From Dinghuibacter silviterrae (GTDB taxonomy: Bacteria > Bacteroidota > Bacteroidia > Chitinophagales > Chitinophagaceae), in NCBI RefSeq assembly GCF_004366355.1, contig NZ_SODV01000001.1:3906001-3970000 (forward strand): a stretch of DNA of 64,000 nucleotides, written 5' to 3'. The translations under genes and the position numbers were made by a program. The notes beneath the pieces are model-generated. The model was given only the letters and a program-made list of their open reading frames with translations, had not been told where the DNA came from and did not search any database. Each line of letters starts with the position of its first letter. Positions within the stretch are counted from its first letter, which is position 1. Positions 48,349 through 53,194 of the stretch are shown here, in pieces.

Positions 48349-49698
48349 ATGCAACCAGGAGACGACGCCGCCTTTAAACAATTGTTCCGCGACGCCTGCC
48401 GGCGCTGTTTCCGGCGGGAGCTATCGGTGCCCCTGTCCGCGACCGAAAGCAAGTTCTTGTGCGCCGAGGTGCTGTCAGAAACCGGCGCGCCGATCGCCTG
48501 GCGCACGGTGCAGCAGCATTCGCTGTGGGTGCACCTGGAGGTGGCGGAGGAGAGCAGGCAGACGGGGCCTACGGGGGTGATGCTGGAGGCGCTGGCGCGA
48601 TATGTTGCGGCGGCGGGTGACGCCGGCGTGCGCGGCGGAGCTGCTGCTGCGAGCGGCGCGGCGGCTACGCCGGGCCCCACCGAAGGGGACGGTGGCCCGG
48701 CTGAAGGGCCCTACCCATTCTGGTTCCGCTACAAGGAGGCCTTCCACCGCGACCGCCTCCCGGCCGTCGTCCACGAACTGGGGTTGCCCGACGCACACCT
48801 TGTTCCCCGCGGGCTTGCCAAAAGATTTTTCTTCCATACGTTCCGGGGCGCGGAGCAATTCATCTTATGGGGGAAGCTCCTCGTACCCGAACGGATCCGG
48901 CATTCGTGGCTGGCATGGCTGGCCTTTCTTTTGCTGACCTCCCTGGCCGTCGTTTGGGGCGTCCGCGAATATTATGCCCGGAAGACCAATACGTTTACCG
49001 ATACGTTCACACAAGTCGCCGGCGACTCCCTGTATACCCGTGGCTGGATGCGGGTTGATCCGGACAGCACGTGGTGGAACAGACGCACCGATAATCCGGG
49101 CGCCCTTACGCTGTTTACGCTCCAGGGGGACAACTGGCCCGATTCCTCCGCCAACCCCTGGATCGGCAACCTTCTGCTGCGGCCCCTGGGCGGGGATTGT
49201 TTTACCGCCGAAGTCCAGTTCTCCGGGTTTACGCCCACCGCCAACTGGCAACAGGCCGGTCTTCTCCTCATGGAAGATACCAGCCTGCGCGCCCGGAGCG
49301 TCCGTATTTCGATCGCCTACAACGACTACTTCGAGGACTACGTCCAGCCGCGGCAAATCATCGTCGAAGGAGTCAGCTCCGCCAGCGACCCCAACCGGAA
49401 ACCGGAGGAGTTCCTCCACAAAACCCTTTACCTGCTGGGGTGGGGGAAAGACAGCCTGATCTACGAAAGTATGCACCACACGGCCCTGCGCATCGAGAAA
49501 CGCGGGACCAGCTATCGCTTTCTATACGCGGGCGGGCAAACCGATAACTTTATCTTCCAGGAGGTCGGGAGCCGGAGCATCTACTTCACACCGCGTTATA
49601 TCGCGCTGTTTGCCCTTAAAGGCTTCGGGCGCCCGGCGCAGGAGCTGCCTGTGCAGGTGCGGTTTTTCAGCGTGCAGACAGGGGCGTGCGAGCCCTAA
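48349..49698 (+). CDS. Membrane-anchored protein with a C-terminal concanavalin-like domain
   Basis: This 449-residue protein of unknown function is in two parts. Residues 1 to about 180 are cytoplasmic and include an Ala/Gly-rich, very GC-rich stretch at about 84-120. A single membrane helix (about 187-205, LAWLAFLLLTSLAVVWGV) leads to an outer domain (about 225-449) that looks like a concanavalin/DUF1349-type beta-sandwich (WQQAGLLLMEDTSLRARSV, ALRIEKRGTSYRFLY). The outer domain may bind sugars. The N-terminal part has no recognised fold. It overlaps the convergent msrA by 4 bp. Confidence 0.6.
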   Translation: MQPGDDAAFKQLFRDACRRCFRRELSVPLSATESKFLCAEVLSETGAPIAWRTVQQHSLWVHLEVAEESRQTGPTGVMLEALARYVAAAGDAGVRGGAAAASGAAATPGPTEGDGGPAEGPYPFWFRYKEAFHRDRLPAVVHELGLPDAHLVPRGLAKRFFFHTFRGAEQFILWGKLLVPERIRHSWLAWLAFLLLTSLAVVWGVREYYARKTNTFTDTFTQVAGDSLYTRGWMRVDPDSTWWNRRTDNPGALTLFTLQGDNWPDSSANPWIGNLLLRPLGGDCFTAEVQFSGFTPTANWQQAGLLLMEDTSLRARSVRISIAYNDYFEDYVQPRQIIVEGVSSASDPNRKPEEFLHKTLYLLGWGKDSLIYESMHHTALRIEKRGTSYRFLYAGGQTDNFIFQEVGSRSIYFTPRYIALFALKGFGRPAQELPVQVRFFSVQTGACEP

Positions 49699-50339
49699 AG
49701 TGCTTTGTACGGCCCCGGAAAAGTCTGCCGGAACCTCAGGTAATCCGGGATGGACACTCCCTCCACATACGGATTCTCCGGATGATGATAAATGTACTCC
49801 TGGTGATATGCCTCCGCCGGATAGAAATGCTCGAACGGCACCACCTGTGTGGCGATGGGCGCCTTGTATTGAGGCGTGATCCGTTTGATCTCCGCGAGAA
49901 TGGTGGCCTTCTCCTGGTCGTTCCGGTAAAAGGCGACCGACCGGTATTGGGTGCCCACGTCGTTACCCTGGCGGTTGACTTCGGTGGGGTCCTGGCTTGC
50001 AAAAAAGGCCTTGACGAGGGTTTCGTAGCTGATCCTGGCCGGGTCGTAGTAAACGTTTACCGTTTCGGCGTGACCCGTCTCACCCGTTTCCACCTTTTCA
50101 TACGTCGGGTCGGTGTCCGTTCCGCCCGAATAACCGGAAACCGCGTCCCTGACGCCCTCCAGGCTCTGGAAAACAATTTCCGCGTGCCAGAAACAGCCCT
50201 CGGAAAAGGTGGCGACCTTTTCGCCGGGAGCGGGTTTTGTGGACGTCGCCCGCGGGATCTTTACGGAAGGGGTTTGCGCGCAACTAGTGCCGAGCAAAAG
50301 CGCGAATACAGCCGTGCTAAGGATAGTTTTCATCTGCAT
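49695..50339 (-). CDS. msrA: Peptide methionine-S-sulfoxide reductase MsrA, lipoprotein
   Basis: This 214-residue repair enzyme reduces the S form of methionine sulfoxide. The active site is EGCFWHAEIVF with the catalytic Cys, and GYSGGTDTDPTYEKV and GHAETVNVYYDP are family motifs. A lipobox (LLGTSCAQ) places it in the envelope, outside the cytoplasm. It lies 25 bp after msrB on the same strand, so the two form an operon covering both sulfoxide forms. The ATG at 50333, two codons inside, is an equally likely start. Confidence 0.95.
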   Translation of the reverse strand: MQMKTILSTAVFALLLGTSCAQTPSVKIPRATSTKPAPGEKVATFSEGCFWHAEIVFQSLEGVRDAVSGYSGGTDTDPTYEKVETGETGHAETVNVYYDPARISYETLVKAFFASQDPTEVNRQGNDVGTQYRSVAFYRNDQEKATILAEIKRITPQYKAPIATQVVPFEHFYPAEAYHQEYIYHHPENPYVEGVSIPDYLRFRQTFPGPYKAL

Positions 50340-50364
50340 ATAGTTGAAAAGCCGCTACCGGCTA

Positions 50365-50895
50365 TTAATGTGCCGCAACCGGCGGTTTTCCCCCTTCAGG
50401 CACAAAGATCAGGGCCGCCGAATTCATACAATAGCGTTTACCGGTGGGCGCGGGGCCGTCGTCAAATACGTGTCCGAGGTGCGATCCCGTTTTGCTGTCC
50501 ACGACTTCGAGCCGGCTCATGCCGTCACTGTAGTCCGGCACCAGCCGTACCGCGTCGGGGTTGATGGGCGCATAGAAGCTCGGCCAGCCCGTCCCCGAAT
50601 CGAACTTTGCGTCCGAACTAAAGACCGGTTGAAGACTCGCGGCAGAGTAGTAGGTGCCCTTTTGGTAAAAGTGATCATACTTACCCGTAAACGGTCTTTC
50701 GGTACCGGCCTGCCGGAGGATATAATATTGATCCGGTGTCAACATGGTCTTCCACTCTGCATCGGTATGCTTCATGGGATAAACGGTCCCCGATTTTGCA
50801 CGGGGTGGATCAGGGAATTTCGAAGATTGAGCGCGCACGCAACCGGTGCTCCAACCCAGGACACAGGCGAGCGCGATAAAAGCGACCTTTTTCAT
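50365..50895 (-). CDS. msrB: Peptide methionine-R-sulfoxide reductase MsrB, envelope form without zinc site
   Basis: This 176-residue enzyme reduces the R form of methionine sulfoxide. The catalytic Cys is in KRYCMNSAALIFVP, and DSGTGWPSFYAPI and GSHLGHVFDDGP are conserved. The structural zinc cysteines of many MsrB proteins are replaced (YYSAASLQPVF where YxCxxC is usual). A leader with a Cys (CVLGWSTGCVRAQ) suggests export, possibly as a lipoprotein. The start at 50895 restores this leader. It is first in the msrB-msrA operon and is divergent from the MBL gene. Confidence 0.95.
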   Translation of the reverse strand: MKKVAFIALACVLGWSTGCVRAQSSKFPDPPRAKSGTVYPMKHTDAEWKTMLTPDQYYILRQAGTERPFTGKYDHFYQKGTYYSAASLQPVFSSDAKFDSGTGWPSFYAPINPDAVRLVPDYSDGMSRLEVVDSKTGSHLGHVFDDGPAPTGKRYCMNSAALIFVPEGGKPPVAAH

Positions 50896-50981
50896 GAATG
50901 TGATTTGTTCCTTAAAGATACGTAAGGCGCGCCCCAAGGGTTTCGTTAAAATTCCCTAACTTTTCCCAAAATTTCTAAGCG

Positions 50982-51851
50982 ATGCGCTATCCTAAACGCC
51001 TATTGACCCTTCTTCTTTTGCTGATCATAGGTTCCGCCCAGGCTCAAAGCAAACTCAAGGTCACCGTTTTCACGTCCGGCCCCACGACGCTTCAAACCAA
51101 TTCCACGATGATCGAAGGCGCGCACTTCGTGATGCTCGTCGACGCCCCCCTTACCCAATCCGACGCCGCCAAGCTCGTCGACAAAATAAAGGCCACCGGG
51201 AAGACCCTGATGGCAGTCTTTGTGACCACGGCCAGCCCCGAACATTATTTTGGTCTTAATACCATAAAGGCTGCTTTTCCCCATGCCAAAGTATGGTCGA
51301 TTCCCCAAGTGATCACGGGGATCAACGCCAATTACACCAACGATGTCGCTGCCTGGAAACCCATTCTGGGGGCCAGCGAGGTACCCGATCACGTCATCCA
51401 GGTGTTCCCGGCCCCGGCGGCCTCTATCATCCTGGACGGTGAGCAGGTCGAGATTGGGGGCCCTCTGCAAGGCGCCGTTCCCGGTATTGCTTACCTGTTT
51501 ATCCCCTCCAGCAAGACGCTCATTACCGGCGACATCGCCTATGGGAACGTTCACCCCTGGACCGCGGGGACAACGCCCAACCAGCGGAAGGACTGGCTGG
51601 AGAGCCTCGACAAACTCAAAAAACTCGCCCCCCTCATGGTCGTCGCCGGGCACAAAGACCCCGCCGCCGCGGACGACCTGGCGTCCATCGAAGGCACCTC
51701 CAATTACCTGAAGATTTACGAAAAGGCCGTCAAGATGTCCCATAGCGGCGACGAGCTCATCGGGATCATCGAAGACCAGTTCCCCGAACTCAAGGGATTG
51801 GACACCGCTTTGAAAGTTGCCGCCGCTAAGCAGTTTCCCGAAACGAATTAA
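50982..51851 (+). CDS. MBL-fold protein with altered metal-binding motif
   Basis: This secreted 289-residue protein has the metallo-beta-lactamase fold. A signal peptide ([16 protein letters not shown]) is followed by the beta-strand start and a segment [12 protein letters not shown] at the place of the metal motif HxHxDH. There only the last His remains, with Thr, Ser and Glu at the other ligand places. [13 protein letters not shown] and VVAGHKDP match the later motifs with Asp and His. A related group of soil-bacterial proteins may share this form; catalysis by the usual dizinc centre seems doubtful. It overlaps the convergent clpP paralogue by 26 bp. Confidence 0.8.
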
Positions 51852-52410
51852 GCAACTCGTCCACCAACCCATAGTCTTTGGCCTCCGCCGCCGTCATAAA
51901 ACGATCCCGGCGGAAAGCTTCTTCTATTTCCGGCGCGGTATGACCTGAGCTTTTGGCCACCATTTGGAAAACCTCCTTCTGGAGCCGCTCCTGTTCCCGG
52001 TAAGCAATCCCAACGTCCTCCGTGTAGCCCATGGCTTTGCCCCCCGCCGGGTGCATGTGAATGGTGGCGTGCGGCAACGCATAGCGTTTACCGGTAGCCG
52101 CCGCTGACAATAGCACGGTACCCATGCTCATTGTCGAGCCCACCGCCACCGTGGACACCGGCGACTTCAGGATACGGATCGTATCATAAATCGCGAGCCC
52201 CGCATAGATACTCCCGCCCGGGCTGTTGATATACAGGTTGATGTCCTGATGACCCTCCGAGTCCAGGTATAAGAGTTGCGCGACCACCAGGTTCGCCACG
52301 ACGTCCTCGATCGCCGTTCCCAGGAAAACAATGCGCTCTTTGAGCAAAAGACTGTAGATGTCGAAAGCGCCGCGGGTGGCGCTGTCGATCACGGTTGGAA
52401 TGACCGGCAT
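51826..52410 (-). CDS. clpP: ClpP-family serine protease (paralogue)
   Basis: This 194-residue proteolytic subunit has the full triad: Ser in [13 protein letters not shown], His in [10 protein letters not shown] and Asp in [38 protein letters not shown] is the conserved core. The substitutions around the Ser (GSTMSMG instead of GQAASMG) and the absence of an adjacent clpX suggest a paralogue rather than the housekeeping enzyme. It is third in an operon, 10 bp after a 68-residue protein and behind an ECF sigma factor, so it may act on a regulator of that sigma factor. Confidence 0.92.
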
Positions 52411-52420
52411 AAAAAAGGTT

Positions 52421-52627
52421 TTAAAATGTGATGGCGCCTTCTCTCATCAGGCGCTCGAATATAGCGTCGAGCTGGATCACCAGGTGCGCGCGACGCTGCA
52501 ACCGCACGTCCTCGTGTAGCTTGCCCTCTACGAGCATACGCACCCGGAAGGCTTCTTCTTCTTCCGGGCACATTTGTCCCAGGAGAAAGCGGTCAATCGT
52601 CTCCGTATCACGTAAGGACTTCCTCAT
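52421..52627 (-). CDS. Small protein between sigma factor and ClpP
   Basis: This 68-residue, highly charged helical protein ([18 protein letters not shown], then [16 protein letters not shown]) has no recognised domain. The opening resembles the short N-terminal helices of some Bacteroidota anti-sigma proteins, but there is no membrane segment. It overlaps the sigma factor gene by 20 bp and ends 10 bp before the ClpP paralogue. It may be a soluble anti-sigma factor or a ClpP adaptor; this is inference from position. Confidence 0.65.
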
Positions 52628-53084
52628 ACACTTCGGATGCTTTCAATTGTTCCCGTAAGCGTTCCAAACACTTGTATTTCTGGACCGTAGCGGAGTGCGC
52701 GCTGGAATAGTGGAATTCACCGGCGATGTCCTCCATGGAAAGGTTGTTGTAGTAAAAGGCTTGCAAGAGTTGTAGGCACCTGGCACCGGCGCCCCGGAGG
52801 TAGCCCCAGATGGGCGTCGAAGTCCTGGCCCCGGGCGCCACCAAATCCGCTGGAAGTCCGATCGTTGCGGGTCTCCGCGCTTCGCGCCGGCAAAGGTTTT
52901 TTGCGATGCCTATCAGGTAGGCCTCCGGATGATCGGGTGCTTCGTCCCGTTCCAAGAGGACCAGAACCGCGTCCTGGAACACGTCCCGGGCCATTTCCAG
53001 GTCGCCGCCGTATCGCCTGACCATGGCTGCCACCTTGGGAAAGGCGGAGCGGTACATGTTTTCTAGTGCTTTCTCGTCCATCAT
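52608..53084 (-). CDS. ECF-type sigma-70 factor
   Basis: This 158-residue sigma factor has region 2 (ALENMYRSAFPKVAAMVRRY, with ARDVFQDAVLVLLER) and a C-terminal region 4 helix-turn-helix (LSMEDIAGEFHYSSAHSATV). The start is one of two adjacent ATG codons at 53084 and 53081; the longer frame runs into the shared promoter region. It is divergent from a large sensor histidine kinase over 110 bp and heads an operon with a 68-residue protein and a ClpP paralogue. No membrane anti-sigma factor of the FecR type is seen. Confidence 0.88.
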   Translation of the reverse strand: MMDEKALENMYRSAFPKVAAMVRRYGGDLEMARDVFQDAVLVLLERDEAPDHPEAYLIGIAKNLCRREARRPATIGLPADLVAPGARTSTPIWGYLRGAGARCLQLLQAFYYNNLSMEDIAGEFHYSSAHSATVQKYKCLERLREQLKASEVYEEVLT

Positions 53085-53194
53085 ATTTATAAGTGTCTGG
53101 AAAACGGTAAATATCACCTCAGAAGTTACAATTTTCTGGTGGAAACGATTAATTTTATCCCCGATATCATCCATTATCCTATCCGAAGAAACTT

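Follow-up and report, generated by a model that had tools for sequence, protein, structure and literature searches.

A conserved Bacteroidota operon of an ECF-type sigma factor, a small anti-sigma-like protein and an extra ClpP, with the protease gene apparently exchanged in place

The window analysed here, a stretch of 64,000 nucleotides from Dinghuibacter silviterrae, carries a trio of genes for a sigma factor, a 68-aa protein and a ClpP, all real at the coordinates below and preceded by a promoter-like element.

53086..53118, minus strand: promoter-like element (GGTGAT at 53113-53118, N17, CACT at 53092-53095, TAAA at 53086-53089)
52608..53084, minus strand: ECF-type sigma factor, 158 aa (PF04542 at 34.4 bits, cut-off 24)
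52421..52627, minus strand: soluble anti-sigma-like protein, 68 aa (by position, homology and predicted fold)
51826..52410, minus strand: ClpP paralogue, 194 aa (PF00574 at 201 bits; triad S95, H120, D169 intact)

The arrangement given in the original prediction, with the genes overlapping or 10 bp apart, was confirmed in strand and coordinates: the last 20 nt of the sigma gene are also the first 20 nt of the small gene, and clpP begins 10 nt after the small gene. The sigma reading frame is open farther upstream, to 53174, and the start at 53084 (or 53081) is likelier because the conserved promoter-like motif at 53086-53118 sits inside the longer frame. The statement that no FecR-type anti-sigma factor is encoded here likewise held for the proteins scanned on both sides of the trio. 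A sensor kinase of 1005 residues, with Reg_prop and HATPase_c domains, is indeed divergent from the sigma gene, but the suggested shared control found no support: kinase homologues flank 5 of the 60 other trio loci in mixed places and strands, and the arrangement seen in the window, upstream on the opposite strand, recurs in 1 of the 60. The 3′ end of clpP overlaps a convergent metallo-hydrolase gene by 26 nt (51826-51851), which may explain why the window ClpP has no C-terminal tail. Adjacent methionine sulfoxide reductase genes, msrA (PMSR) and msrB (SelR), lie on the minus strand at 49695-50937. A role in phage defence was considered and set aside, as the three trio proteins gave no PADLOC match at E 0.01.

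The window sigma factor scored 194 bits with a profile of the trio sigmas. PF04542 (Sigma-70 region 2) matched in 22 of 28 members of the trio-sigma family, none of the 28 matched region 4 of Pfam, and a conserved helix-turn-helix-like block was seen by eye near the C-terminus of the trio sigmas. The NCBIfam model SigE-fam_strep aligns with residues 3-148 of the window protein at 27.6 bits, far below its cut-off. These matches suggest a sigma factor in which region 2 is recognised and region 4 has diverged. The last residues show no invariance; neither conservation nor a degron can be read freely at this C-terminus, because the same bases contain the first codons of the small gene.

Comparison with the housekeeping clpP-clpX locus identified the window clpP as an extra, third copy, refuting the possibility that it was the sole copy and adjacent by chance. 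The genome encodes three full-length ClpPs, the window copy and a tandem pair located with one clpX at 1.344-1.347 Mb of contig C1, beside a trigger-factor-like gene recognised by eye; identity of the window ClpP to the two members of the pair is 43% and 37%. All 13 trio genomes checked had another full-length clpP outside the trio. The Ser-His-Asp triad is kept in 71 of 71 trio ClpPs, and the window protein probably has little or no propeptide, since its alignment with mature ClpP starts at residue 1. ClpX and a ClpC-like protein (assigned by eye) are encoded elsewhere in the genome and carry IGF/VGF stretches; the IGF loop is the docking site of ClpX and ClpC on ClpP. Fourteen of 60 trio ClpPs (L021, L022, L024, L025, L027, L028, L032, L034, L037, L039, L042, L043, L046 and L052) carry a variable C-terminal tail in which [VIL]GF[KRQ], resembling the IGF loop, is retained. 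The tail, absent from the window copy, might serve for self-docking.

Among the genomes compared, the trio is a conserved unit across several orders of Bacteroidota, with the same gene order and strand, and its occurrence in many genomes refutes the idea that it is found only in this one. A search with the 68-aa protein gave matches in 16 of 394 genomes of the family, and the order sigma, small protein, ClpP was present in 13 of the 16, the own genome included. An alignment of 13 trio ClpPs yielded 278 relatives in named genomes, and among the best 80 of these 278 a sigma gene lay upstream of ClpP in 60. Two more (L077 and L087) belong to the same ClpP clade, with the contig end reached before the sigma position, and 18 fall outside the clade with no sigma seen, 17 of them labelled Chloroflexota; for one of the 18 (L094), with just 86 upstream bases, the presence of a sigma gene cannot be judged. 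The ClpP clade in named genomes therefore holds 59 full trios in 62 loci, along with one locus with a shortened small gene (L085) and two contig edges. In every one of the 59 loci measured, the small gene begins before the sigma gene has ended, and in 45 the shared stretch is 20 nt long (L085, its small gene read by eye as shortened, and L087 were excluded from this count).

Within the family sample, this ClpP was found at E <= 1e-85 in 21 of 394 genomes, and every one of the 21 had the trio, although in one (L115) the ClpP frame begins late; this sample and the named-genome set have 13 loci in common. The trio is thus widespread yet patchy, and the one other genome of the same genus in the sample (91% complete) matched neither the small protein nor this ClpP. 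When genome contigs were scanned, relatives came to light with the ClpP alignment but not with the 68-aa protein by itself. Beyond the trio, no gene family is common to more than 7 of 61 flanking regions. At one locus (L028:6606-8043) the trio and its promoter motif are duplicated in tandem, and the second copy has a fragmented clpP and no small gene detected at E 1e-5.

A sigma-led search, independent of ClpP, gave a concordant picture. The trio-sigma profile returned 30 loci from 380 genomes of the phylum; the trio was present in all seven that scored at least 173 bits, and ClpP in none of the 23 that scored 134 bits or less, 15 of which had instead a long protein matching the small-protein profile (14-31 bits). 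This score gap is not absolute, as a known trio sigma (G664) scored as two pieces (117 and 109 bits) and was missing from the returned loci. In a tree of 28 trio sigmas and 24 controls, the trio sigmas form one clade (support 99/98), with family f9 at its base and families f3 and f5 nested deep inside.

What the small protein does is suggested by its relatives. A profile built from 58 members matched in 80 of 395 phylum genomes, and the 30 loci listed from this search comprised 9 trios and 21 others (L144-L164); homology to the small protein at L018 and L019 reached 47.9 and 42.3 bits. In all 21 of the other listed loci, the match covers the N-terminal 45-75 residues or so of a protein of at least 211 residues, the gene of which lies directly after or overlaps an ECF-type sigma gene. 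A Kyte-Doolittle segment of at least 1.6 is present in 19 of the 21 long proteins, the remaining two reaching 1.41 (L146) and 1.11 (L158). Of the 21, ten were scanned with Pfam: seven showed TPR repeats (above cut-off in five), one had a trypsin-like domain and two had no match, and the shared N-terminal part of these ten had no Pfam match above cut-off. By position and layout the long proteins look like membrane anti-sigma factors, a presumed identity, and the small protein in turn resembles the cytoplasmic domain of such a protein, with the membrane portion missing. One of them (L154:613-1764) joins the anti-sigma-like N-terminal domain to a hydrophobic segment and Trypsin_2 (91.5 bits) beside an ECF sigma gene. 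The window genome also has an ECF sigma gene outside the trio, and the long frame behind it carries a homologous N-terminal domain (C1:588909-589612; 44 bits), so the soluble and the long form coexist there.

Structure predictions point in the same direction. The AlphaFold model of the window small protein has three helices (pLDDT 88.2) and that of its counterpart at L022 has four (pLDDT 93.5). When the window model was compared by Foldseek with 350,542 PDB chains, the top four matches were the anti-sigma factors RsiW (twice), RskA and RslA, at E values of 2.4-5.7, none significant singly; on realignment the Z scores were 6.0 for RslA, 5.6 for RsiW and 5.0 for RskA, compared with 2.2 for the next entry. 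The L022 model gave two matches, with RslA first at E 7.9. Sequence profiles were less informative: 58 small proteins scanned against Pfam gave weak, scattered matches with no anti-sigma family seen among the 25 of 55 families listed, the window protein had nothing above cut-off, and the small-protein profile found nothing convincing among PDB sequences (best E 0.086, a ribosomal-type protein). Two known classes were rejected. The HxxxCxxC signature of zinc-finger anti-sigma (ZAS) proteins is present in none of 60 related loci, where the L085 entry is not its real small gene, nor in the window protein; and the 19-residue hydropathy peak is at most 1.16 in the window protein and eight other trio small proteins, which is inconsistent with a membrane anti-sigma factor of the RseA/FecR type.

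Taken together, position, homology and fold likeness to anti-sigma domains bear out the earlier suggestion that the small protein occupies the place of an anti-sigma factor, and it probably holds the sigma factor in check. The window copy is shorter than its relatives (68 aa versus 82-94 aa), with about 17 of their residues and the last helix missing, and may therefore work less well. Across the family, the C-terminal part appears by eye about as conserved as the N-terminal part. At L085:3687-3812 and L079:3641-3919 the N-terminal half is shortened or decayed and the C-terminal RRK part is kept. A survey, in its accessible text, places class I anti-sigma domains beside 6% of Bacteroidota ECF factors compared with an average of 32% (PMC7406223). 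Because the domain found here stands beside ECF sigma genes and is silent in Pfam in the ten proteins scanned, the small-protein profile may uncover more hidden anti-sigma factors.

Upstream of the sigma gene lies a motif, GGTGAT-N17-CACW followed by TAAA, which in the window ends one base before the ATG. When the spacer was allowed to range over 15-18 and one base to deviate, 55 of 60 trio loci had the motif, a count that includes the window and omits L037 for want of upstream sequence; shuffled sequences gave 0.5 of 60. It also occurs in 8 of 10 further trios (6 of 8 after removal of two repeats of named loci) and in none of 47 control sigma loci (44 distinct). Five of the 60 loci lack the motif as written, and the two f9 genomes keep its first half only. 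The layout fits an ECF promoter, making autoregulation of the operon likely.

The ClpP genes have a history different from that of the sigma factor. The main trio ClpP clade groups with ClpPs of Chloroflexota, far from non-trio ClpPs of Bacteroidota. Its nearest relatives outside the trio clade (L061, L063, L066, L067, L072 and others) are all but one labelled Chloroflexota, with Caldilineaceae predominating, and this points to a transfer from one phylum to another. In contrast, three other families (f3, f5 and f9) contribute six trio ClpPs that fall among ordinary non-trio ClpPs. Five of these six could be compared with the other ClpP of their own genome and are 70-87% identical to it, compared with 41-49% to the window ClpP. 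The hypothesis that all trio ClpPs form a single clade was rejected by an AU test (p = 2e-44, log-likelihood difference 370) on a 45-row tree thinned from 107 rows, from which five second-type ClpP rows of tandem pairs and the long-branched L165 had been dropped. Trio ClpPs would thus derive from at least two lineages under one sigma clade, so the switch appears to have been inherited as a line and its protease gene replaced, at least twice by the simplest count. This apparent exchange is, in our view, the strongest evidence for a functional need of ClpP at this place; it argues that an ordinary ClpP suffices in the slot, and cells apparently require a protease that is coupled to this switch. 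The refilled slot also makes the question of what extra ClpPs are for a testable one, with a special enzyme on one side and a regulated supply of an ordinary enzyme on the other.

We propose, at a probability of roughly 0.57, that the trio forms a self-contained, autoregulated sigma/anti-sigma switch whose main product is extra ClpP. The soluble anti-sigma, translated from the overlapping gene, would hold the ECF sigma factor; once it is removed or outcompeted, the sigma factor would transcribe its own operon from GGTGAT-N17-CACT, giving more sigma, more anti-sigma and additional ClpP, which would work with a general unfoldase, ClpX or ClpC. The most economical loop would be one that stays switched on because Clp keeps removing the anti-sigma, given that ClpXP destroys anti-sigma domains in systems already known, and the small protein would be a natural Clp substrate because ClpP-containing proteases degrade other anti-sigma proteins. 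We infer from sequence comparison and predicted structure three links in this scheme, namely that the sigma factor uses the motif, that the small protein binds and inhibits it, and that Clp degrades the small protein. A more speculative form, which we hold to be possible but doubtful, is that the loop senses and tops up Clp capacity, with its own operon as the one conserved target of the sigma factor, the anti-sigma as a Clp substrate that reports capacity and any ClpP as output. That any ClpP will do would explain why the slot has been refilled repeatedly from unrelated ClpP lineages.

Parts of this scheme have precedents. Degradation by ClpP-containing proteases is described, in the available text of the respective reports, for the anti-sigma factors FpvR20 of P. 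aeruginosa (PMC5733041), RsgI of C. thermocellum (PMC12203970) and RseA of E. coli (PMC8103513), and there, as proposed for the trio, the sigma factor is freed when such proteases remove the anti-sigma domain. RseA and RsgI are described in the same texts as membrane proteins cut first by membrane proteases, whereas the anti-sigma-like domain of the trio is soluble, and those texts describe no dedicated operon-encoded ClpP for RseA, FpvR20 or RsgI. Clp control of anti-sigma factors is therefore known, but a protease inside the sigma operon is unlike the cases compared here, as far as the available text of the reports goes. A dedicated regulator of extra ClpP, with housekeeping ClpP encoded elsewhere, is described in the consulted part of a report on PopR and clpP3-clpP4 of Streptomyces (PMC9765437); PopR is, however, a ClgR-like activator paired with two clpP genes, in contrast to the sigma/anti-sigma-like pair and one clpP of the trio. 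For ECF115, the portion of a review that was available names Clp proteases in the gene neighbourhoods as predicted regulators and gives a C-terminal extension of about 70 residues, with an example from Bacillus, unlike the 158-aa trio sigma, which has no extension (PMC8999054). Membership in ECF115 was accordingly rejected, the window sigma factor ending soon after the conserved C-terminal block, as was membership in the PopR-clpP3clpP4 type, the regulator here being a sigma factor and the clpP single. To our knowledge, clpP does not lie beside the gene for AntA of Streptomyces albus. The same portion of the review presents AntA (ECF282) as an ECF factor controlled by ClpXP, through a degron of terminal di-alanine and with no anti-sigma factor, unlike the trio (PMC8999054). 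The long Bacteroidota proteins described above resemble the trio small protein in their homologous N-terminal domain and position after a sigma gene, and differ in the hydrophobic segment (19 of 21), a further TPR or trypsin-like domain (8 of 10 scanned) and no adjacent ClpP. We found no description of this operon in the literature as far as its accessible text allows, and the sigma group may be listed in the main ECF classification (Casas-Pastor 2021).

Four other explanations were weighed. Chance neighbourhood, with three unrelated genes lying together in a few related genomes, would fit the patchy spread over 21 of 394 family genomes and the relative of the same genus without matches, but it is extremely unlikely: order and strand are constant across several orders, no other family reaches more than 7 of 61 flanks, the ClpP gene appears to have been repeatedly replaced in place, and the family trio counts, the sigma-led search and the ClpP tree test already refute it. 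A possible explanation, though one we think on balance improbable, is that housekeeping ClpXP degrades the sigma factor itself, so that overload or poisoning of the protease would let the sigma factor accumulate and make replacement ClpP in the manner of PopR. The slot accepts unrelated ClpPs, including near-copies of the other ClpP of the genome (87% identity in one genome), which fits peptidase supply better than a special substrate pocket, and a further full-length clpP was found in 13 of 13 trio genomes checked. The logic of PopR, ClpP1P2 and ClpP3P4 in Streptomyces, in the consulted part of its report (PMC9765437), and ClpXP control of the ECF factor AntA, in that of the review (PMC8999054), also agree with it. 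Such a circuit would, however, leave the anti-sigma-like protein without a clear role, and no residue is invariant at the very end of the sigma factor, a region constrained by its overlap with the small gene.

The sigma factor could also be the substrate in the opposite sense, with the extra ClpP and ClpX or ClpC degrading it and ending a pulse of operon expression. This negative feedback would agree with a ClpP probably made from the same transcript and with ClpXP degradation of AntA, as the available portion of the review has it (PMC8999054); we judge it rather unlikely, as an extra ClpP would be needed only if housekeeping ClpP could not degrade the sigma factor, and no sequence pointer marks the sigma factor as a substrate. 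Quite improbable, finally, is a small protein that serves as a Clp adaptor, delivering the sigma factor or another substrate, instead of as an anti-sigma factor. In its favour, the C-terminal part is kept about as well as the N-terminal part (by eye) and persists at L079 and L085 despite decay of the N-terminal part, but homology and fold indicate anti-sigma-like domains. A ClpP-specific adaptor would also fit poorly with a slot that takes unrelated ClpPs, although Clp adaptors usually bind the ATPase.

The sigma factor may act beyond its own operon. A scan of 15 trio genomes with a strict form of the motif gave 25 rows, one of them a duplicate, with 10 sites at the trio promoter itself and 14 elsewhere, compared with 5 in a backwards control. 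All 14 sites elsewhere overlap some mechanical reading frame; this is a weak filter because 3 of the 10 trio promoters overlap frames too. Further targets are possible because the strict pattern missed the trio promoter in 5 of the 15 genomes. By geometry only one of the 14 sites (L195), and perhaps another (L196), looks like a promoter: L195, in the window genome (C1:2793863-2793898), matches the motif well and lies 9 nt upstream of the start codon of a SnoaL-like gene, a possible second target of the sigma factor.
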